DNA of 43,639 bases from a virus, in the IMG/VR virus record IMGVR_UViG_3300034071_001534, positions 1 to 43,639 of that record. One strand, given 5' to 3'. The position numbers and the translations under genes are program-made. The notes under the pieces were generated by a model. It had not been told where the DNA came from, ran no database searches, and worked only from the letters and a program-made list of their open reading frames with translations. Positions 6,253 through 42,372 of the stretch are shown here, piece after piece (position 1 is the first letter of the stretch; every line of letters begins with the position of its first letter).

Positions 6253-6282
6253 ATCTTACCCCCTACTTGACGCTAGTGTCAA
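6253..6282 (-). promoter_or_regulatory. Promoter with TTGAC-N6-GTCAA operator, primase operon
   Basis: On the minus strand the -35 TTGACA (6282-6277) is embedded in the 16-bp palindrome TTGACACTAGCGTCAA (6282-6267). The -10 TAAGAT is at 6258-6253, with an 18-bp spacer. The predicted start is close to 6246, next to the ATG at 6245. The palindrome recurs at five other sites in the genome, so it is likely a repressor-binding site. Confidence 0.75.
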
Positions 6283-6332: not shown

Positions 6333-6638
6333 TTACGCCGCGAGGCTGTTCGCGGCGCGTTGACGCAGCGGTGCGGGCGCGGCTTTTGCGACACGGTGCC
6401 CGGACATGATACCGGCGGCGATGATAGGAAGGATCTCATCGCGAACCGCTGCGCGCATGATCTCCGTGCGCAGCTTGTCCATGCCGCCGAAGTACGTCGA
6501 GACGAGCCCGGCGGATACTCCGGCCTCCCGCGCTACGCTTTTGCGCGTGACCGCGTGAAAGCCTTTTCGGGTTGCAAAGGTCACGGCGGCGGCGAGGATT
6601 TTTTCGGCGCGCTCCGGACCGGGTAGGTGCTTTTGCAT
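6333..6638 (-). CDS. TetR-type HTH DNA-binding protein, short
   Basis: A 101-aa protein whose first ~70 residues match the TetR/AcrR DNA-binding domain: KILAAAVTFATRKGF, VTRKSVAREAGVSAGLVSTYF (helix-turn-helix at about 30-50) and the following GGMDKLRTEIMRAAV helix. Full TetR proteins have ~190-220 aa; here the ligand-binding domain is almost absent, leaving ~30 residues. It may therefore dimerise differently and be ligand-independent. The ATG at 6638 has GGGAG upstream. Two TTGAC/GTCAA half-sites lie just upstream (6655-6676), suggesting self-control. Inference: it binds the TTGAC-N6-GTCAA palindromes found at the early promoters. Confidence 0.85.
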   Translation of the reverse strand: MQKHLPGPERAEKILAAAVTFATRKGFHAVTRKSVAREAGVSAGLVSTYFGGMDKLRTEIMRAAVRDEILPIIAAGIMSGHRVAKAAPAPLRQRAANSLAA

Positions 6639-6654
6639 CGTGAGGACTCCCAAA

Positions 6655-6676
6655 GTTGACGCAATGGTAACTTGAC
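6655..6676 (-). promoter_or_regulatory. Possible autoregulatory half-sites upstream of the TetR-type gene
   Basis: Two GTCAA half-sites in the same orientation on the minus strand (GTCAAG and GTCAAC) flank a weak -10-like TACCAT, 17 bases downstream of TTGCGC. They match the half-site of the phage-wide palindrome but do not form a palindrome, so this is weaker than the other sites. Confidence 0.35.
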
Positions 6677-6695
6677 CGCACGGGACGCGCAAGCC

Positions 6696-9186: not shown

Positions 9187-9215
9187 TTGACAGTGCGGTC
9201 AGTTTGGCATAACGT
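9187..9215 (+). promoter_or_regulatory. Promoter of the plus-strand replication unit, degenerate operator
   Basis: TTGACA (9187-9192) with a 17-bp spacer and a -10 around TAACGT (9210-9215), preceded by TGGCA. The first 16 bases, TTGACAGTGCGGTCAG, match the phage palindrome TTGAC-N6-GTCAA at nine of ten defined positions. The site is also 14 bases upstream of the helicase ATG on the other strand, so a bound repressor could affect both directions. Confidence 0.6.
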
Positions 9216-9256: not shown

Positions 9257-10060
9257 ATGCTTTTTTCCTGCACCCTAAGTACCAGTGAAGACACCGGCAA
9301 CGACGCATCGATTGCGATCCGTACGATCGCGGGTCTGTTCGGTCTGTTGGTGACGATCAGCACCGCCGGCCCCGGCGAGACACCCCCAGGCCCGGGCGAA
9401 GACTTGAGCGCGGCAACGGTCGGTTTCGGCGGCGTGGCCGCAGCCCACACGCTCCCCCCTGCCGATGCCGAAACGGCCGCGCTTTTGTCTCGCGTCGAAG
9501 TCGACGCCGACCTGCTGCCGTGGGACAACCGTATCCACGCTGCATCGAAAGCCAAGAACCAGGACGGCAGATGGAAAGCCAAACCGAAAATTGACCCGGC
9601 GGAGCGGCTGCGCGTTGAAAGCGAATTGCGCGTTATCATGGGGACTGCTGCCCCGCCCGCCGCTGCCGCAGTCATCCCGCCGCCGCCCGCCGCTGCCGCA
9701 GTCATCCCGCCGCCGCCCGCCGCCGCCGCAGTCATCCCGCCGCCGCCCGCCGCTGCCGCAGTCATCCCGCCGCCGCCCGCCGCTGCCGCAGTCATCCCGC
9801 CGCCGCCCGCCGCTGCCGCAGTCATCCCGCCGCCGCCCGCCGCTACGACTCCGGCAACCCCTGCAACCTTCGCGTCTTTGATGGAATGGCTAGGGCCGTA
9901 CATGGCATCGCAGCAGCTTACCCCGGCGCTTGTTTCGGAAGCGATGCGCACCGTCGGCGTCGTCGACGCCACCGGCAACGGTTCCGTGCAGTTGTTGGCG
10001 ATGCGCCCCGATTTGATCGGGAATGCGTACGCCGAACTGTGCAACCGCATCCCGCGGTAA
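9257..10060 (+). CDS. Phage replication-cluster protein with Pro/Ala decapeptide repeats
   Basis: A 267-aa protein, first gene of the rightward replication unit; ATG with GGAG upstream. After ~75 residues there is a motif common to many phage proteins next to DUF2800 genes: LLPWDNRIHAASKAKNQDGRW with KPKIDP (about 95-120). Six perfect or near-perfect copies of a ten-residue unit (AAAAVIPPPP) follow at about residues 133-195. A conserved-looking C-terminal domain (FASLMEWLGPYMASQQLTPALV...) ends the protein. The repeat is probably a flexible linker between two folded parts. Biochemical function not known to me. Confidence 0.85.
   Translation: MLFSCTLSTSEDTGNDASIAIRTIAGLFGLLVTISTAGPGETPPGPGEDLSAATVGFGGVAAAHTLPPADAETAALLSRVEVDADLLPWDNRIHAASKAKNQDGRWKAKPKIDPAERLRVESELRVIMGTAAPPAAAAVIPPPPAAAAVIPPPPAAAAVIPPPPAAAAVIPPPPAAAAVIPPPPAAAAVIPPPPAATTPATPATFASLMEWLGPYMASQQLTPALVSEAMRTVGVVDATGNGSVQLLAMRPDLIGNAYAELCNRIPR
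9651..9845 (+). repeat. 30-bp tandem repeat encoding AAAAVIPPPP
   Basis: Six head-to-tail 30-bp units, strictly in frame, one differing by a single silent base (around 9721). It codes for a Pro/Ala linker in the gene at 9257. Very high GC and near identity suggest recent expansion by slippage. Confidence 0.95.
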
Positions 10061-11190: not shown

Positions 11191-12168
11191 ATGAATGACG
11201 AGATTTATCAGCTTTTTCCGCCCGGCCGCCTCGTACAAGGTAGCCCCTACGAACCCAACACCACGGACGCAGACGGTAAACCGTTGGTCACGAAGACGGG
11301 CCCGAACGCCGGACAGCCGCGCATCGAGTATTACAATGCGATTGCGATCCCCAAAACGCCGGGCGTCACGCATTGGGCGCACGAAAAGTCGGACGATCCG
11401 AACGTCGGCGCCTGGGGCATGAATCTGTGGAACGCCGTCGCGAAGATGTGGCCGAACGGTCAGTACCAACGCCCCGACTTCGCGTTCAAAATCACAGACG
11501 GTGATTCGACCATTCCGAACAAAAAAGGCAACCGCCCTTGCGATGCGACAGGCTTTCCCGGTTGTTGGGTGCTCAAGTTCGGCGGCGGGTACGCGCCGAA
11601 AATTGTCAACGCGAACGGCTCCGAACTGATCACCGAAGTAGGCGCGATAAAGCTCGGATTTTTTGTGCAGATGTATGCCAGCATCAGCAGCAACAAGTCG
11701 GACCAGTCGCCCGGCATTTACTTGAACCATCGAATCATGGCGTTGACCGGCTGGGGGCCGGAGATCATCAACGGGCCCGACCCGTCGTCTGTAGGCTTCG
11801 GCGCCGGACCCCTGCCGCCAGGGGCGTCGTCCGTCCCTTTGGGGGGTATGACGCTGCCGGGGAATGGATCCCTCCCGCCTCCGCCGGGTGCGCCCTTGCC
11901 TCCACCGGGTGTTGCTTCGCTGCCGCCGGCCGGTGCTCCTGCTATCCCAGCCCCGCCTCCTAACACGGCATTCAGTGCGGGAGTCACCGGGGCGCCACCG
12001 ATCAGTACGGCACCGCCCGGGGCAGTCATCCCGCCTCCGCCTTCGCTTGCCCCGCCGCCCCCTCCGGTCGGCCCGACAATGACGGCCAAAGCCGAGGGCC
12101 GCAGCCGTGCCGACTTCGTCGGATGGACCGATGCGCAGCTGGTCGAACACGGGTACATGCTCCCGTAG
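11191..12168 (+). CDS. DUF2815-like single-strand DNA-binding protein
   Basis: A 325-aa protein started at ATG 11191 behind a strong TTTGGAGG site, four bases after the nuclease gene. Residues 1-190 (GRLVQGSPYEPNTTDADG, GMNLWNAVAKMWPNG, GCWVLKFGG, GAIKLGFFVQMYASISSNKSDQSPGIYLNHRIMAL) fit the DUF2815-type phage DNA-binding proteins that replace SSB in this gene order. A ~110-residue Pro/Gly-rich tail follows, ending in a short folded motif (RADFVGWTDAQLVEHGYML) that could recruit partners as SSB tails do. The DNA-binding role rests on family and neighbours. Confidence 0.85.
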   Translation: MNDEIYQLFPPGRLVQGSPYEPNTTDADGKPLVTKTGPNAGQPRIEYYNAIAIPKTPGVTHWAHEKSDDPNVGAWGMNLWNAVAKMWPNGQYQRPDFAFKITDGDSTIPNKKGNRPCDATGFPGCWVLKFGGGYAPKIVNANGSELITEVGAIKLGFFVQMYASISSNKSDQSPGIYLNHRIMALTGWGPEIINGPDPSSVGFGAGPLPPGASSVPLGGMTLPGNGSLPPPPGAPLPPPGVASLPPAGAPAIPAPPPNTAFSAGVTGAPPISTAPPGAVIPPPPSLAPPPPPVGPTMTAKAEGRSRADFVGWTDAQLVEHGYMLP

Positions 12169-12185
12169 TAACGGGGTTTTAGTTT

Positions 12186-12233
12186 GCCGCGCAACACCGG
12201 GGTTTCCTTTGCGTGTTGCGCGGCTTTTTTTTT
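12186..12233 (+). terminator. Strong terminator between SSB-like and polymerase genes
   Basis: A perfect 11-bp stem (GCCGCGCAACA / TGTTGCGCGGC) with a 17-base loop is followed by nine T residues. It ends only 12 bases before the polymerase ATG, and the polymerase ribosome site (GGGAG) starts at its very edge. Polymerase expression therefore depends on read-through or antitermination, since no separate promoter is visible after it. Confidence 0.93.
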
Positions 12234-12245
12234 GGGAGTTCCGAG

Positions 12246-14600
12246 ATGGAAAGGCTTGCCGGCGACGTGGTACAGGTTGGGCTGGGGTGGGCGACCGTGC
12301 TACCGGATATCGACTTCGAAACATACAGCGAGGCCGGGTATGTGTGGGCGCCCAATTGGGCAGACCGGTACGGCAACACGGTTGGACGGTGGAAAGCCCC
12401 GCCGGGCGTAAACTCAACCGCTGACGCCGGACTGCTTTGTGTCGGCGCTGCGGTGTACTCCGAACACCCCAGCTGCGAAGTGTTGACGTGTTCGTACGAT
12501 TTGAAAGACGGGCGCGGGAAACGCCGATGGAGGCCGGGCCGGGGGCTACCATACGACCTGTTCGACCACGTTGCGGCCGGTGGTTTGCTGGAATCGCACA
12601 ATGCGGGCTTCGAATGGTGGATCTGGTACAACGTGTGCCGCGTTAAGTACGGGTGGCCGATGATACCGGCAGCGCAACAACGATGTAGCGCTGCAAAAGC
12701 GCGCGCGTTCGGTCTGCCGGGCGCGCTAGATCCGTTATGCGTAGTGCTGAACACCGCGACAAAAAAAGACCCCGGCGGAAAAGCCTTGATCGATCTTTTT
12801 AGCAAGCCCCGACAGCCTGATAAAAAAGACCCGCGGCGCCGGGTCGCGATGGACGACGAGCCGGTGCAGGCGATCCGCTTTATGAATTATTGCGATACCG
12901 ACATCGAAGCCGAGGCCGAAGCGTCTCAGTGCATCCCCGACCTGTCCCCCGCCGAACTGGAATGGTGGCAGGTCGATCAGTTGATCAACCGTCGCGGCGT
13001 GCACGTCGACTTGACTACGATCAACGCGGCGATCGCAATTATCGAACAAGCGTTTGAACGCTACAACACGGAACTGCACGTACTGACCGGGGGTGCTGTC
13101 GAACGTGCGTCAGAACTTGACAAGTTGAAAGGCTGGATGCACGCCCAAGGCTTTCACATGGATTCGATGGACGAAGCCGGGATTGCGGACGCGGTCAAAC
13201 GGATCGAGTATTCGCTGTCAACTTGGGAGGTAGCCGAATCGGAGATTGCCCCCTTGCGGCGCGCGCTGGAAATTCGGCAATTGGTCGGATCGGCAAGCGT
13301 GAAAAAGCTGTACGCGATGCGCAACCAAGCGACGCAAGCGAGTCGACTGCACGAACTTTTCATGTACCACGCAGCGCGCACCGGGCGCGCGACGGGCAAC
13401 GGCCCCCAGCCGACCAACTTACCGAACAGCGGCCCCGACGTGCGCGTGTGCCTATGTGGCCGACACTTCGCGTTGACGCACGCTGCCTGCCCGTGGTGCG
13501 CGATGGCAGTGCCGCCGAAGCCGCCGGCCGGCCTCCCCGATCGCACGGTGTCGGAATGGAACCCCCAGGCCGTCGAGGACGCGATAGCTTGCATCCGAAC
13601 GCAGGATCTAAACGTAGTCGAGCATTACTTCGGAAACGCGGTCGTTGCCGTCTCCGGATGCCTGCGGGGCATGTACACCGCCGCCGCAGGGTATGAATTG
13701 ATCTGTTCCGACTACTCCGCAATTGAGGCCGTCGTACTGGCGGAACTGGCGGGCGAGCAATGGCGCATCGATCTATTCAAAGCGCGCGGCAAAATTTACG
13801 AAGCGTCCGGCGCAAAGGTGCAAGGCTTGGCATTAGAGGACGTGCTTGCGTATCGAGATCGAACCGGCCAGCACCACCCGTGCCGCAAAAAAGGCAAGGT
13901 GCTAGAACTGGCCTGCGGTTTCGGGGGGTGGATTGGCGCCTTGATCAATTTCGGCGCCGATGAATTCATGACCGAAGAGGAAATGAAACAATCAATTCTC
14001 GCTTGGCGTGCAGCGTCGCCGATGATCGTCAAATTTTGGGGTGGGCAGTTCGTCGACGGCACGGGGCACCCTTGCCCGTCATTCTTTCGCGACGCTCGTC
14101 CAACACTGACCGGCCTAGAGGGCATGGCGATCTCTGCTGTCTTATATCCCGGCACGCCGTTCGCGTACCGCGGAATTGAATACATCGTCGTCGACGACGT
14201 GCTGTATTGCACACTGTTATCTGGCCGTCGGCTCGCGTATCACCGACCACGCTTGGCGCACAGTGCGCGCGGCGGGTTGGCTTTATCGTACGAAGGATGG
14301 AACACTAACCCGAAAATGGGAGCGCCTGGGTGGGTGCGCATGGACACGTATAGCGGAAAGCTCGCGGAAAACGTCACGCAGGCGACGGCCCGGGACGTTT
14401 TGGCGCAAGCGGTTGTGCGACTGTGGCGCGCGGGGTACCACACTGTGCTACACGTGTACGACGAGATTGTTGCGGAAGTGCCGAAAGACTGGGGGTCTAT
14501 CGAAGAGTTTGAACGGCTCATGTCCATCATGCCCGCTTGGGCCGAAGGCTGGCCGATCTTCGCAACGGACGGATGGCGCGGGCACCGCTACAGAAAATAA
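12246..14600 (+). CDS. Family A DNA polymerase with 3'-5' exonuclease
   Basis: A 784-aa replicative polymerase. Exonuclease motifs: DIDFET (Asp21/Asp23, Glu25), HNAGFEW (~118-124) and YCDTD (~215-219), so proofreading looks intact. Polymerase motifs: A CSDYSAIEA (~487-495), B KVLELACGFGG (~551-561) and C LHVYDEIVAEV (~737), where Tyr replaces the more usual His before Asp-Glu. A Cys4 zinc-ribbon-like insert (CLCG and CPWC, ~402-418) sits between thumb and palm. The ATG at 12246 is preceded by GGGAG; an upstream in-frame GTG lies inside the terminator hairpin and was rejected. Confidence 0.96.
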   Translation: MERLAGDVVQVGLGWATVLPDIDFETYSEAGYVWAPNWADRYGNTVGRWKAPPGVNSTADAGLLCVGAAVYSEHPSCEVLTCSYDLKDGRGKRRWRPGRGLPYDLFDHVAAGGLLESHNAGFEWWIWYNVCRVKYGWPMIPAAQQRCSAAKARAFGLPGALDPLCVVLNTATKKDPGGKALIDLFSKPRQPDKKDPRRRVAMDDEPVQAIRFMNYCDTDIEAEAEASQCIPDLSPAELEWWQVDQLINRRGVHVDLTTINAAIAIIEQAFERYNTELHVLTGGAVERASELDKLKGWMHAQGFHMDSMDEAGIADAVKRIEYSLSTWEVAESEIAPLRRALEIRQLVGSASVKKLYAMRNQATQASRLHELFMYHAARTGRATGNGPQPTNLPNSGPDVRVCLCGRHFALTHAACPWCAMAVPPKPPAGLPDRTVSEWNPQAVEDAIACIRTQDLNVVEHYFGNAVVAVSGCLRGMYTAAAGYELICSDYSAIEAVVLAELAGEQWRIDLFKARGKIYEASGAKVQGLALEDVLAYRDRTGQHHPCRKKGKVLELACGFGGWIGALINFGADEFMTEEEMKQSILAWRAASPMIVKFWGGQFVDGTGHPCPSFFRDARPTLTGLEGMAISAVLYPGTPFAYRGIEYIVVDDVLYCTLLSGRRLAYHRPRLAHSARGGLALSYEGWNTNPKMGAPGWVRMDTYSGKLAENVTQATARDVLAQAVVRLWRAGYHTVLHVYDEIVAEVPKDWGSIEEFERLMSIMPAWAEGWPIFATDGWRGHRYRK

Positions 14601-14665
14601 CCGTTCGTCGGCTGGCACTTGACGCTAACGTCAAGTCGTTTAAGATGATCACATTCCCGCAACGA
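14601..14665 (+). repeat. Promoter cassette, copy 1 of 3
   Basis: A ~65-bp direct repeat, nearly identical to 40415-40479 and 41988-42054. It includes CCGTTCGTCGGCTGG, the palindrome, the -10 and the leader CACATTCCCGCAACGA. Confidence 0.9.
14619..14646 (+). promoter_or_regulatory. Promoter with perfect palindromic operator
   Basis: TTGACG (14619-14624), 16-bp spacer, TAAGAT (14641-14646). The palindrome TTGACGCTAACGTCAA (14619-14634) covers the -35 box. It drives the two small genes at 14679 and 14951, leaving a leader of about 25 bases without a clear Shine-Dalgarno sequence. Confidence 0.78.
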
Positions 14666-14678
14666 ACGAGCTGCCGAT

Positions 14679-14954
14679 ATGACTGACGCCACCCTTAGCA
14701 AAAGCCGATTCCGTCCAGGCGGCCGCCTTGATATTCTCGCCGCCAACCACGCTGCACACATTGCACGCGTGAAAGAAAAGGGTGGTCCGGTGCTGTCGTA
14801 TTCTCCGCCGTGCGGCTGTCCGCCTATCGAAACGCCCGCGCCGAAAGACGAGCGCGAAACGTGGGACAGTTTGACGACATGCGTGCATTGCGGCGCGCTG
14901 TTTATGAAGATAGTGCGGCGCGGTTCCGTAGAATGTCGGACGCTGCCCGCATGA
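14679..14954 (+). CDS. Small Cys-containing hypothetical protein
   Basis: A 91-aa protein directly behind the operator promoter. CGC at about residues 46-48 and CVHCGALF at about 67-74, plus a late Cys, suggest a zinc knuckle. The N-terminal ~35 residues are basic and helical (RLDILAANHAAHIARVKEKGG). The leader lacks a strong ribosome site (GAGCTGCCGAT). No family recognised; small zinc-binding proteins in this position are often regulators or host-takeover factors, but that is a guess. Confidence 0.8.
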   Translation: MTDATLSKSRFRPGGRLDILAANHAAHIARVKEKGGPVLSYSPPCGCPPIETPAPKDERETWDSLTTCVHCGALFMKIVRRGSVECRTLPA

Positions 14955-15154
14955 CCGCGCTCGTCGTAGATCTAGAGCGAGTAAAACGCGCGGTGGGCAT
15001 GTCGCACACCTTGGGCATGCCCGAGACGCGCGCCACCGTCGTTGCCAGGATCATTGCCAACACGCGAGAAGAGCAATCGGGAGACTGGCAGCAACGCCAC
15101 GAACGCGCGATGCGTCTGATATCCGCCACGTCGGCGGACGACGGCAGCGCTTGA
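14951..15154 (+). CDS. Small hypothetical protein, helical
   Basis: A 67-aa protein. The ATG overlaps the previous stop (ATGA), giving coupling. It is mostly helical (DLERVKRAVGMSHTLGMPETRATVVARIIAN...). Its TGA stop lies inside the TTGACG -35 box of the downstream small-RNA promoter, so the gene end and the promoter share bases. No family recognised. Confidence 0.75.
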   Translation: MTALVVDLERVKRAVGMSHTLGMPETRATVVARIIANTREEQSGDWQQRHERAMRLISATSADDGSA

Positions 15155-15180
15155 CGGGGCGGGCCGGGTTGGTTTAAGGT
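15151..15180 (+). promoter_or_regulatory. Putative promoter of the small RNA at 15187
   Basis: TTGACG (15151-15156), 18-bp spacer, TAAGGT (15175-15180), close to the TAAGAT of the other phage promoters. The second half of the palindrome is missing, so it should escape the repressor. The predicted start, about 15187, is exactly the first base of a hairpin. Confidence 0.55.
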
Positions 15181-15186
15181 TCAGCC

Positions 15187-15289
15187 TGTAGCGCGTGGGC
15201 ACCAGGCGGGATACTGGGGCGCTGCAGTCAAGGGACGGAAAGGCCGCAGTGGGCCGGGATTACTGAAAAGTGCCCGGCCCATTGTTTTT
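15187..15289 (+). ncRNA. Putative stand-alone structured small RNA (~103 nt)
   Basis: A non-coding stretch between two gene blocks with its own promoter and a strong terminator. Predicted elements: a 5' hairpin with outer stem TGTAGCGC/GCGCTGCA (15187-15194 with 15219-15226, one G-T pair) enclosing CCAG/CTGG. Next comes a purine-rich open segment (GGGACGGAAAGG). The last element is a terminator hairpin with a 9-bp stem. No open frame with a ribosome site is present. I do not recognise an RNA family; it could be a trans-acting regulator of host or phage mRNA, or a protein-binding decoy. Confidence 0.55.
15250..15289 (+). terminator. Rho-independent terminator ending the plus replication block
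   Basis: TGGGCCGGG (15250-15258) pairs with CCCGGCCCA (15273-15281) around a 14-base loop, followed by TTGTTTTT. It stands just before the 3' end of the convergent late block. Confidence 0.9.
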
Positions 15290-15295
15290 GCGCGT

Positions 15296-15625
15296 CTATC
15301 GGATACGACCGGCCGCGCGCTCACGATCAAGGCAATCAGCCGTTTCGGCCCGTTGCGTCACGACGCTCTCGTACGCACCGTACGCGCGTATTGCATGGCC
15401 GCCCCACAAGGCATGCACGCGGCCCACATATGACCGCCACTGCGCGGGCGTAGCGTCGTCCGAAGGTGAAGGGCTGAACCCAGGCCGCCGCGGCAGCGGC
15501 TCAGCCGGCGCCCTTTCGCTGCAATCGATCCGCGGCGGATCGGGCGCGATCATGCGCATTTTCCAATTCGCGCACGATGTCAGCAGGCACACCGCCATCA
15601 ACAGAATCAAGGTCGTTCGGTACAT
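15296..15625 (-). CDS. Rz1: Rz1-like outer-membrane spanin lipoprotein
   Basis: A 109-aa lipoprotein: signal MYRTTLILLMAVCLLTSC with the lipobox Leu-Leu-Thr-Ser-Cys (Cys18), then a Pro-rich stretch (APDPPRIDCSERAPAEPLPRRPG) as in Rz1 proteins. It starts inside the Rz gene in another frame, overlapping by 125 bases, which is the classic nested spanin layout. Longer than lambda Rz1 (60 aa), with an added Arg/Ala-rich C-terminus. It would sit in the inner leaflet of the outer membrane and bind Rz to fuse the two membranes at lysis. Last gene of the late block. Confidence 0.88.
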   Translation of the reverse strand: MYRTTLILLMAVCLLTSCANWKMRMIAPDPPRIDCSERAPAEPLPRRPGFSPSPSDDATPAQWRSYVGRVHALWGGHAIRAYGAYESVVTQRAETADCLDRERAAGRIR

Positions 15626-15935
15626 AGCTTTCGGCCCTCCGGGCTGCATCATCGGTATGGATACGGACTTCGACCGTTTGGCCGTCCATGTTACCCCGGG
15701 TGGTCGACGCGTTCGACGCCGCCCCGTTCGCATTGTTCGCGTTGGCCGTCGCAACGCCTGCGATGGCTTCCGCATTTTCTGCGCGGGTCTCCATCCTATC
15801 GGCTTTCCATTGCCAGTATTTCCCCGTCAGCACTCCCCACCCAAAAAACAGCAGCAAGCCCGCAAGTGCGACCAGGGCGACGATGTTGTATATCGTTTTG
15901 CCGAGCGTTTCGCCACGGAGGAAAACCGGAATCAT
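15501..15935 (-). CDS. Rz: Rz-like inner-membrane spanin
   Basis: A 144-aa protein with one N-terminal membrane helix (about residues 15-37, IYNIVALVALAGLLLFFGWG) followed by a long Ala/Asn/Glu-rich periplasmic region predicted helical (coiled coil). This is the i-spanin plan. The start ATG 15935 overlaps the previous stop. Asn/Ala-rich repeats (GVATANANNANGAASNAS) are unusual. It pairs with the nested Rz1 lipoprotein and is the second-last gene of the lysis cassette. Confidence 0.87.
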   Translation of the reverse strand: MIPVFLRGETLGKTIYNIVALVALAGLLLFFGWGVLTGKYWQWKADRMETRAENAEAIAGVATANANNANGAASNASTTRGNMDGQTVEVRIHTDDAARRAESYVPNDLDSVDGGVPADIVRELENAHDRARSAADRLQRKGAG

Positions 15936-38688: not shown

Positions 38689-38711
38689 TTCGACCGCTCG
38701 TCGGCCGGCAG

Positions 38712-39278: not shown

Positions 39279-39760
39279 GTGCAAAGCCTTCCGAGCGCGC
39301 AGCAGCGAAAGCCGCGGGCCTCGCGCAGTACACGACCGCCCGCCCGTGCGTTCGCGGCCACATGGCGCCACGCTACACGCAGTCCGGCGCGTGCAGTGCG
39401 TGCATCGTGAGCCATGTTGTCCGTAGCCGCGAAGCCTTCCGCGCAGGTCCAGGCGCCGCCCGCAACGCGCAACGCGCAACGTACGCGCAGACGGTCCGCG
39501 TCATGTCGGTGCGGTTGCCGCTGCACGCCGTGAAGGACGTGGCAGGCGTGGCGGCTGCGATGTTGGTCGCGCGGTTCCCTTTGATGGTCGACGACAAACG
39601 TGTTGACTTTGGCGCGACGTACCGGGTGGGTGCGCCGGAAGGCGAAACGGCAATGGTCCGTTTGCTCGCCCACAACGACGACATGCCTACACTTCGCGCG
39701 ATGGCCGACGGCGAGTGCCTGCGGTACAGCGAAGCATTACGACGGAGGGTGCACGTATGA
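39275..39760 (+). CDS. Zinc-finger hypothetical protein
   Basis: A 161-aa protein from GTG 39275 (GTGA overlap). A treble-clef-like zinc site is visible early: PCVRGHMAPRYTQSGACSACI (Cys, His, Cys, Cys). This CxxGH...RYT.sGxCxxC pattern occurs in many phage proteins, sometimes fused to HNH or endonuclease VII-like modules; no nuclease core is visible here. The second half (MSVRLPLHAVKDVAGVAAAMLVARFPLMVDDKRVDFG...) is a separate small domain. Function unknown. Confidence 0.8.
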   Translation: MSAKPSERAAAKAAGLAQYTTARPCVRGHMAPRYTQSGACSACIVSHVVRSREAFRAGPGAARNAQRATYAQTVRVMSVRLPLHAVKDVAGVAAAMLVARFPLMVDDKRVDFGATYRVGAPEGETAMVRLLAHNDDMPTLRAMADGECLRYSEALRRRVHV

Positions 39761-40185
39761 TAATCGACCGGTTCGACGGTCCGCACCGTTTCCTTTCAAA
39801 TTTTTCATACAGTCCGGTCGTTTGCCGCGGGCTTGTCGCCCAAACAGTAGAGCACGCGTATCAGGCATCTAAAACACTGCAGGCCGACGCATTCCAGCAC
39901 GTCATGAGATCGCCCACGCCGGGCGAAGCGAAGCGGCGCGGCCGACGCGTGCCGTTGCGCGCCGATTGGGACGACGTGAAAGAATCGGTTATGTGGGAAC
40001 TGCTATGGCAAAAATTTCGAGACCCGAAAATGTCCGCCGCGCTTCTCGCAACCGGGGATGCAAAATTGATCGAAGGGAACAACTGGGGCGATACGTACTG
40101 GGGACAATGTAACGGCCGTGGCGCCAATCGCCTAGGCACCATGCTGGCGTACGTCCGTGCATACCGCCGGGCGGGGTACGCATGA
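39757..40185 (+). CDS. NADAR (YbiA-like) domain protein, candidate anti-defence enzyme
   Basis: A 142-aa single-domain NADAR protein. Signature residues are RFLSNFS (12-17), TVEHAYQASK with Glu32, Gln36 and Lys39, the Trp71/Lys87-Phe88 region, LIEGNNWGDTYWG with Glu106, Trp110, Asp112 and Trp115, and GANRLGTML. NADAR enzymes are N-glycosidases that remove ADP-ribose from nucleobases or act on related ribosyl compounds. In bacteria some serve as antitoxins to the DNA ADP-ribosyltransferase DarT. A phage copy could repair ADP-ribosylated DNA and so defeat DarT-type defence; that role is inferred. ATG behind GGAGGG, overlapping the previous stop. Confidence 0.93.
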   Translation: MIIDRFDGPHRFLSNFSYSPVVCRGLVAQTVEHAYQASKTLQADAFQHVMRSPTPGEAKRRGRRVPLRADWDDVKESVMWELLWQKFRDPKMSAALLATGDAKLIEGNNWGDTYWGQCNGRGANRLGTMLAYVRAYRRAGYA

Positions 40186-40436
40186 AAACCGTTCGAGACT
40201 TTGACGACGCGCAGCTGCGAGGCCGTCCGAACTTTTCGGCGTTGATTCTGTACGGCGGTCCGGCACATATCGTTCCAAACACGGCGAAGGGAGACGACGC
40301 CGACGAGTTCCGCGCACTATGCGACACGGTCGCGTCGGAGTATTTCCAACCGAGAGGCCGCCGTCCGATGTGCCCCGCGTGCGTCGCGCTATGGGAGATG
40401 GCCGCAGCAATTGACCGTTCGTCGGCTGGCACTTGA
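40182..40436 (+). CDS. Small Cys-containing hypothetical protein, last of accessory unit 1
   Basis: An 84-aa protein from ATG 40182 (ATGA overlap with the NADAR gene). MCPACVALWEM near the end suggests one half of a metal site. Its last residues, RSSAGT, are encoded by the promoter cassette beginning at 40415, and its TGA stop lies inside the TTGACG -35 box. No family recognised. Coupling to NADAR suggests a related pathway. Confidence 0.78.
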   Translation: MKTVRDFDDAQLRGRPNFSALILYGGPAHIVPNTAKGDDADEFRALCDTVASEYFQPRGRRPMCPACVALWEMAAAIDRSSAGT

Positions 40437-40479
40437 CGCTAACGTCAAGTCGTTTAAGATAGTCACATTCCCGCAACGA
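40415..40479 (+). repeat. Promoter cassette, copy 2 of 3
   Basis: Nearly identical to 14601-14665; differs by one swapped pair of bases after the -10 (AGTCACA instead of GATCACA). Confidence 0.9.
40433..40460 (+). promoter_or_regulatory. Promoter with perfect palindromic operator, accessory unit 2
   Basis: TTGACG (40433-40438), 16-bp spacer, TAAGAT (40455-40460); palindrome TTGACGCTAACGTCAA at 40433-40448, identical to the one at 14619. The leader before ATG 40494 is about 27 bases. Confidence 0.78.
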
Positions 40480-40493
40480 TACGAACCGCCGAC

Positions 40494-40700
40494 ATGCAAA
40501 CCGTCCACGACAAGCGCACTTTCGAGTTGACTGTCATTCCGAGCGACTTCCCGGCTGTCGAAGCCGACTTGATTCGCCGTGGGTTCGACGGCCGATCGTA
40601 CGTCGGCGAAAGCGAAGGCACTGGCCGTCAGCACGTGCGCGTCGCACTGTTCTACCGCCAGGCCGCCGACGGCGCGTTCGTCAACGCGTTGGGATCCTGA
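40494..40700 (+). CDS. Small hypothetical protein, accessory unit 2
   Basis: A 68-aa protein, first gene after the cassette promoter. MQTVHDKRTFELTVIPSDFPAVEADLIRRGFDGRSYVGE alternates beta and helix. No ribosome site resembling GGAGG is present; the leader (CACATTCCCGCAACGATACGAACCGCCGAC) is shared with the other cassette genes. No family recognised. Confidence 0.75.
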   Translation: MQTVHDKRTFELTVIPSDFPAVEADLIRRGFDGRSYVGESEGTGRQHVRVALFYRQAADGAFVNALGS

Positions 40701-41584: not shown

Positions 41585-42009
41585 CCGACGACGAGTTCGC
41601 CCGCTTCGCCGCGTTGTACTTGCGATTCGAAGCGGATCCGCGGGACACGTCTGCCCGGGTAGAGTTGATGACCAACGTTGCCCGCGGCGGCTGTTGGGAT
41701 AAAACCGGCCAGGCGATGCACCGCACGTTGCTGGCGTACGACGTGGCAACCCTGTCCGCGTCTACGTTGCGCGAACGCGCCAATAAACGCGGCGACTCCG
41801 TCACAACTGCAGCCGTCCGCATGATCAGCGTCGGCACTTGGCCGATGTCCGCCGCGTTTATCGGTGCGACGGCGTGGGCACGTGTAGCGCGCGGGGTAGG
41901 CGTAGCTCCGGAAACGTTCGCGCCGATGCGGCCGATGTTCGTTGATGCGTATATTGACGAGCTCGTCGCACTGGTCAAAGCGGCGCACCGTTCGTCGGCT
42001 GACACTTGA
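41581..42009 (+). CDS. Hypothetical protein, last of accessory unit 2
   Basis: A 142-aa protein from ATG 41581 (ATGA overlap). The start FARFAALYLRFEADPRDTSARVELM and the helix TLSASTLRERANKRG precede a second helical region. Its final residues HRSSADT and the TGA stop come from promoter cassette 3, so it shares its C-terminal tail with the gene ending at 40436. No family recognised. Confidence 0.78.
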   Translation: MTDDEFARFAALYLRFEADPRDTSARVELMTNVARGGCWDKTGQAMHRTLLAYDVATLSASTLRERANKRGDSVTTAAVRMISVGTWPMSAAFIGATAWARVARGVGVAPETFAPMRPMFVDAYIDELVALVKAAHRSSADT

Positions 42010-42054
42010 CGTTAGCGTCAAGTCGTTTAAGATGATCACATTCCCGCAACGATA
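41988..42054 (+). repeat. Promoter cassette, copy 3 of 3
   Basis: Matches 14601-14665 with a few changes, all of which keep the palindrome intact (GCTAAC becomes GTTAGC, a compensating pair). Confidence 0.9.
42006..42033 (+). promoter_or_regulatory. Promoter with palindromic operator, accessory unit 3
   Basis: TTGACG (42006-42011), 16-bp spacer, TAAGAT (42028-42033); palindrome TTGACGTTAGCGTCAA at 42006-42021. The double change relative to the other cassettes keeps both arms, indicating selection on the site. Confidence 0.78.
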
Positions 42055-42066
42055 CGAGCCGCCCCG

Positions 42067-42372
42067 ATGAGAATTTCCGAGATTCGCGATATCATCCGCC
42101 GCGCCAACTGGACCCGTCACGACTTGACCGGCGGCACGTGCGACGAGTTTCGCCGCCAGGATGTCGGCGGCCGTCTCGCCGAACAGATGGAAAAGCTGCG
42201 CGCGCTGCAGATTCCGGCGCGGTTCGTGCGCGACATCGAAGAGCGCGAGCACGCGATCGACGCCGCCGCAAAAACCATCGCCCGTTGGATCGACGCGCGC
42301 GCTGCGTTCGAGGCACCCAAGCCGACGGCGATCGTTTACGCGTTCCCGTCGGGCCGGAGGATCGCGGCGTGA
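42067..42372 (+). CDS. Small helical hypothetical protein
   Basis: A 101-aa protein (MRISEIRDIIRRANWTRHDLTGG...) predicted almost wholly helical with alternating charged residues (FVRDIEEREHAIDAAAKTIARWIDARAAF). The leader lacks a purine-rich ribosome site (GAGCCGCCCCG). No family recognised. Confidence 0.78.
   Translation: MRISEIRDIIRRANWTRHDLTGGTCDEFRRQDVGGRLAEQMEKLRALQIPARFVRDIEEREHAIDAAAKTIARWIDARAAFEAPKPTAIVYAFPSGRRIAA

Follow-up and report, generated by a model that had tools for sequence, protein, structure and literature searches.

Does the 141-nt gap between the converging transcription units of this virus hold a free-standing structured small RNA gene with its own promoter and terminator, as a first-pass annotation had proposed for positions 15151-15289, or does it hold the end of a rightward operon? 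The window, that is, the whole stretch of DNA that was analyzed, was an IMG/VR virus record of 43,639 bases with 61% G+C.

Genome context of the convergent junction

The rightward replication genes of the window encode an exonuclease, a Gp2.5-like annealing protein, and a family A DNA polymerase, and the leftward lysis and structural genes span approximately 15.3 to 38 kb. As part of the terminator reading that we favor, the window is likely to be a tailed phage and 15151-15289 the tail end of its rightward (early) transcription unit. The 141-nt gap separates the stop codon of the last rightward gene (15152-15154) from that of the leftward lysis genes (at 15296). The features of the locus are collected in Table 1. 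IMG/VR searches for relatives of the genes flanking the gap, including the 67-aa gene at 14951-15154, returned none, and no Pfam match was obtained for the leftward frame at 15296-15775.

Table 1. Features at and around the convergent junction, in window coordinates.
Feature	Position	Strand	Description
Operator-bearing rightward promoter after the DNA polymerase gene	14619-14646	+	Member of the operator-bearing promoter set of the phage
Last rightward gene before the terminator	14951-15154	+	67 aa; TGA stop; no relatives found
Promoter-like TTGACG-18-TAAGGT	15151-15180	+	Sigma-70 8/12; shares TTGAC[AG]..TTTAAG with the four operator-bearing rightward promoters
5' hairpin	15186-15227	+	9-bp outer stem, loose interior; -20.8 kcal/mol, z -2.45
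Purine-rich linker	15228-15246	+	Mostly unpaired; best phage duplex no better than those of shuffled linkers
Intrinsic terminator	15247-15289	+	12-bp G+C-rich stem, inner ACT-GAAA-AGT extension, then T5
Last leftward reading frame, convergent with the rightward operon	15296-15775	-	C-terminal part spanin lipoprotein-like by inspection

The proposal that no gene lies between promoter and terminator held, as no frame with a ribosome-binding site was found in the 141-nt gap. A short coding region is very improbable; it would be a GTG frame of 23 codons at 15195-15266 or the preceding gene continued past its TGA (open from 15155 through the terminator). Both frames are open, but no properly spaced Shine-Dalgarno sequence was found, the continuation frame lacks ATG, GTG, and TTG, and the frame runs across the terminator and is too short for G+C by codon position to be informative.

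Two further observations were made among the rightward genes. A gene with a NADAR domain (E 1.1e-21) was located at 39715-40185 among small early genes, and two terminator-like hairpins were located at 12161-12235, directly 5' of the DNA polymerase gene. The second of these hairpins has a long, almost perfect stem with T9 after it, and the pair gave the lowest folding z-score in the region scanned.

Terminator at the junction

By its sequence, 15247-15289 is a textbook, unambiguous rightward intrinsic terminator. The stem arms (CAGTGGGCCGGG/CCCGGCCCATTG) occupy 15247-15284, and TTTTT follows directly 3' of the stem at 15285-15289. The folding energy was -27.0 kcal/mol (z -5.54), and 0 of 500 shuffles were equally stable, which bears out the strong terminator previously placed with its end at 15289. 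The proposed RNA as a whole folds at -52.2 kcal/mol, for the most part owing to this element.

The terminator lies exactly between the rightward stop codon (15154) and the leftward stop codon (15296). In this respect it resembles the intrinsic (Rho-independent) terminators of convergent phage operon junctions, in which a G+C-rich stem and a U-tract are likewise placed between convergent stops, and relatives also carry a terminator at the same convergent junction. It departs from the usual terminators of such junctions in the two-step inner extension of its stem and in the promoter-like sequence that precedes it by about 95 bp. On the minus strand, no T-run follows the stem; therefore, the terminator looks one-directional.

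The same layout bears on a cis-antisense RNA, or transcriptional interference, in which the transcript would be the complement of the 3' end of the leftward lysis mRNA and would damp late lysis expression early in infection. The convergent arrangement fits this explanation, and with no minus-strand T-run after the hairpin, leftward transcripts may cross 15295-15155 and so carry the full complement. However, the RNA stops before the lysis reading frame and would thus cover only untranslated RNA, and the arrangement was found in no relative. We consider an antisense role improbable.

Promoter-like sequence and the operator-bearing promoters of the phage

The proposed promoter was confirmed as to its elements, with TTGACG at 15151-15156, an 18-nt spacer, TAAGGT at 15175-15180, and a predicted start at about 15187. 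As had also been noted, the -35 hexamer overlaps the TGA (15152-15154) of the preceding gene, 14951-15154. The site scored under the cut-off of the promoter scanner, and a sigma-70 consensus score of 8/12 is a level that arises 0.8 times per kb per strand in this phage. Judged by the phage's own promoters, the site fares better.

Four rightward promoters (14619, 38712, 40433, and 42006) carry TTGAC[AG] within a palindrome of the TTGACGCTAACGTCAA type, followed by TTTAAGAT. The palindrome was matched 9 times, with both strands counted, against 0.6 expected, and a leftward promoter at 6282 has an 18-nt spacer, as the site at 15151 does. The pattern TTGAC[AG]-N13..17-TTTAAG was found five times against about 0.01 expected per shuffled window, an optimistic expectation because the motif was picked after the sites had been seen; the fifth site is that at 15151. 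Among the seven TTGAC[AG]-N15..19-TAnnnT sites in the window, six contain the TTGAC-N6-GTCA palindrome, which is absent at 15151 alone. The second operator arm of the other phage promoters, CGTCAA, is missing there, as the first-pass annotation had stated.

This lone palindrome-less site fits an operator-less promoter and equally a look-alike, and we put the chances of a genuine, if weak, promoter at about even. The main source of the transcripts that reach the terminator is probably the promoter at 14619-14646. A TetR_N protein encoded at 6333-6692 on the minus strand is a candidate repressor that could bind the palindrome.

Several additional observations concern the promoter set. A -35 hexamer inside a TTGAC-N6-GTCA palindrome was located at 6267, 9187, 14619, 38712, 40433, and 42006 of the window. 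The promoter-like, palindrome-bearing sequence at 9187-9215 (TTGACAGTGCGGTCA..TAACGT, 17-nt spacer) lies just 5' of a rightward gene at 9257. A promoter module of about 65 bp (ACCGTTCGTCGGCTG..TTGACG..TTTAAGAT..CACATTCCCGCAACGA) is present in three near-identical copies, at 14600-14680, 40415-40495, and 41985-42070, with a diverged copy at 38700. The operator-promoter module was searched in IMG/VR, and none was found there. The same design, with the -35 element in a palindrome, occurs in the distant relatives L002, L008, L009, L010, and L015, each with its own core sequence. Relatives with this design include Acinetobacter phage Scuro, Shewanella phage SppYZU01, Pseudomonas phage vsMR, and IMG/VR contigs.

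Upstream hairpin and linker

The stem arms of the 5' hairpin were placed at 15186-15194 and 15219-15227. The earlier statement that transcription starts at the exact first base of this hairpin holds within the 1-2 nt precision of the start prediction, but the stem begins at 15186, one base earlier. The z-score of -2.45 was reached only with the edges cut to fit, and it was about 0 in a 67-nt window. At least equally good folding was given by 105 of 8720 43-nt windows of the phage (1.2%). The whole 104-nt region ranked approximately 21st by z among 1241 sliding windows, which cover about the first 21 kb, half of the phage. The 5' fold is within chance for this G+C-rich genome. If transcription enters from upstream, its 3' arm has 15140-15150, within the preceding gene, as a possible alternative partner. 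Since the hairpin is unexceptional and this alternative pairing is possible, structure alone is no evidence for an RNA gene. A duplex scan of the linker and loop against the phage gave no partner better than those given by shuffled sequences.

With its two neighboring hairpins close to a predicted start, the locus also recalls the put RNAs of phage HK022, in which two hairpins likewise lie close together. In HK022, the put sites open the early operons and suppress termination. A put-like cis-acting antiterminator RNA, whose two hairpins would modify RNA polymerase, is nevertheless extremely unlikely at this locus. Unlike a put RNA, the element ends in a terminator, its second hairpin being itself the one with the U-tract, and it closes the rightward operon instead of opening it, with no rightward genes after it; it thus does not belong with the put sites.

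Comparison with relatives and known RNAs

Homologues of the DNA polymerase were found at 7 loci in IMG/VR (up to 54% identical) and in named phages (up to about 48%), and none in bacterial genomes. They often share the order polymerase, small genes, convergent junction, and lysis genes. A simple hairpin terminator lies at the convergent junction in L005 and in phages TPWB-08, Scuro, and AeroV_348, and the L002 junction has a hairpin whose T-run faces the leftward strand. A promoter-plus-hairpin unit beside the junction terminator is absent in these five relatives. A promoter-like sequence 3' of the polymerase gene was also seen in relatives L002, L004, L013, L015, and L016.

Single-sequence covariance models R1 and R2 were built, and R2 was searched. 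In the 15 related records, both blastn of the proposed RNA and model R2, a weak single-sequence model that would miss divergent copies, gave chance-level matches only. The blastn matches on 15232-15253 in G001 and G002 (E about 0.03) were judged to be chance. DNA similarity searches in phages and plasmids gave nothing meaningful, and the exact 17-mer of the linker was not found in IMG/VR. No Rfam family scored above threshold, with both gathering and permissive thresholds applied. The Rfam family BjrC68, matched on the minus strand, reached 23.8 bits against a gathering threshold of 39 and was rejected as a generic hairpin match, with sub-threshold matches in 11 of 14 control genomes. None of the relatives reached exceeds 54% polymerase identity; at this distance, their lack of the unit is a poor guide to constraint among close relatives.

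Phage small RNAs such as lambda OOP, aQ, DicF, and IpeX have demonstrated transcripts and targets (review PMC12197685), in contrast to 15151-15289, which is known from sequence alone. Like this locus, they are short non-coding segments of phage that end in an intrinsic terminator (PMC12197685). A short RNA made here would, by analogy, be of a known kind (PMC12197685). No sequence homology between 15151-15289 and known phage small RNAs was found.

Interpretation of the locus

The free-standing structured RNA gene of the first-pass annotation was upheld in part: a terminator, a promoter-like sequence, and a non-coding segment are present, but the fold is at chance level, and neither an Rfam match nor a homologue was obtained. 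For these reasons, and because convergent junctions are expected to carry a terminator and relatives have one there without the rest, an RNA gene is not established.

An independent small regulatory RNA at 15187-15289 that acts in trans on transcripts of host or phage, and that would still be made while the TetR-type repressor silences the other promoters, would accord with the promoter match common to the promoters of the phage, the operator arm lost at 15151, and a terminator with a U-tract with no coding gene in between. However, its 5' fold is unexceptional, no conserved copy was found in the phages, plasmids, IMG/VR, or 15 related records searched, and the best phage duplex of its purine-rich unpaired linker is no better than those of shuffled linkers; the repressor and its binding to the palindrome are moreover both putative. 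We regard this explanation as rather unlikely. Its narrower form, a repressor-escaping RNA that has lost one operator arm, is expressed while the other promoters are silent, and acts on lysis or host transcripts, is distinctly unlikely. A functional small RNA is possible, and neither structure nor conservation nor predicted partners speak for it.

The explanation we favor, and consider the probable one, is that 15151-15289 is the terminator of the rightward operon at a convergent junction, perhaps joined by a weak, lineage-specific promoter that yields a short terminated transcript. The terminator would halt RNA polymerase moving rightward where it meets the leftward lysis and structural genes, so that its transcripts would not extend antisense into them. 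The 15151 promoter would be a weak, operator-less relative of the promoters of the phage. Firing of this promoter would yield an RNA of about 103 nt, ended at the terminator, whose 5' hairpin would need no special function. The convergent layout, the terminator, the promoter-like match, and the missing operator arm are established from sequence and computation; termination in vivo, initiation at 15187 (if there is any), and the lack of a dedicated RNA function are inferred.

Two findings count against a bare terminator. A promoter-type match with 0.01 expected per window lies in intergenic DNA, which makes up little of the genome, and a hairpin begins within one base of the predicted start. 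Together, the match and the hairpin at the start are more than a bare terminator needs. An ordinary terminator would have little importance beyond annotation. The operator-less promoter, if active, would give this phage a transcript freed from repression by the decay of one operator arm.
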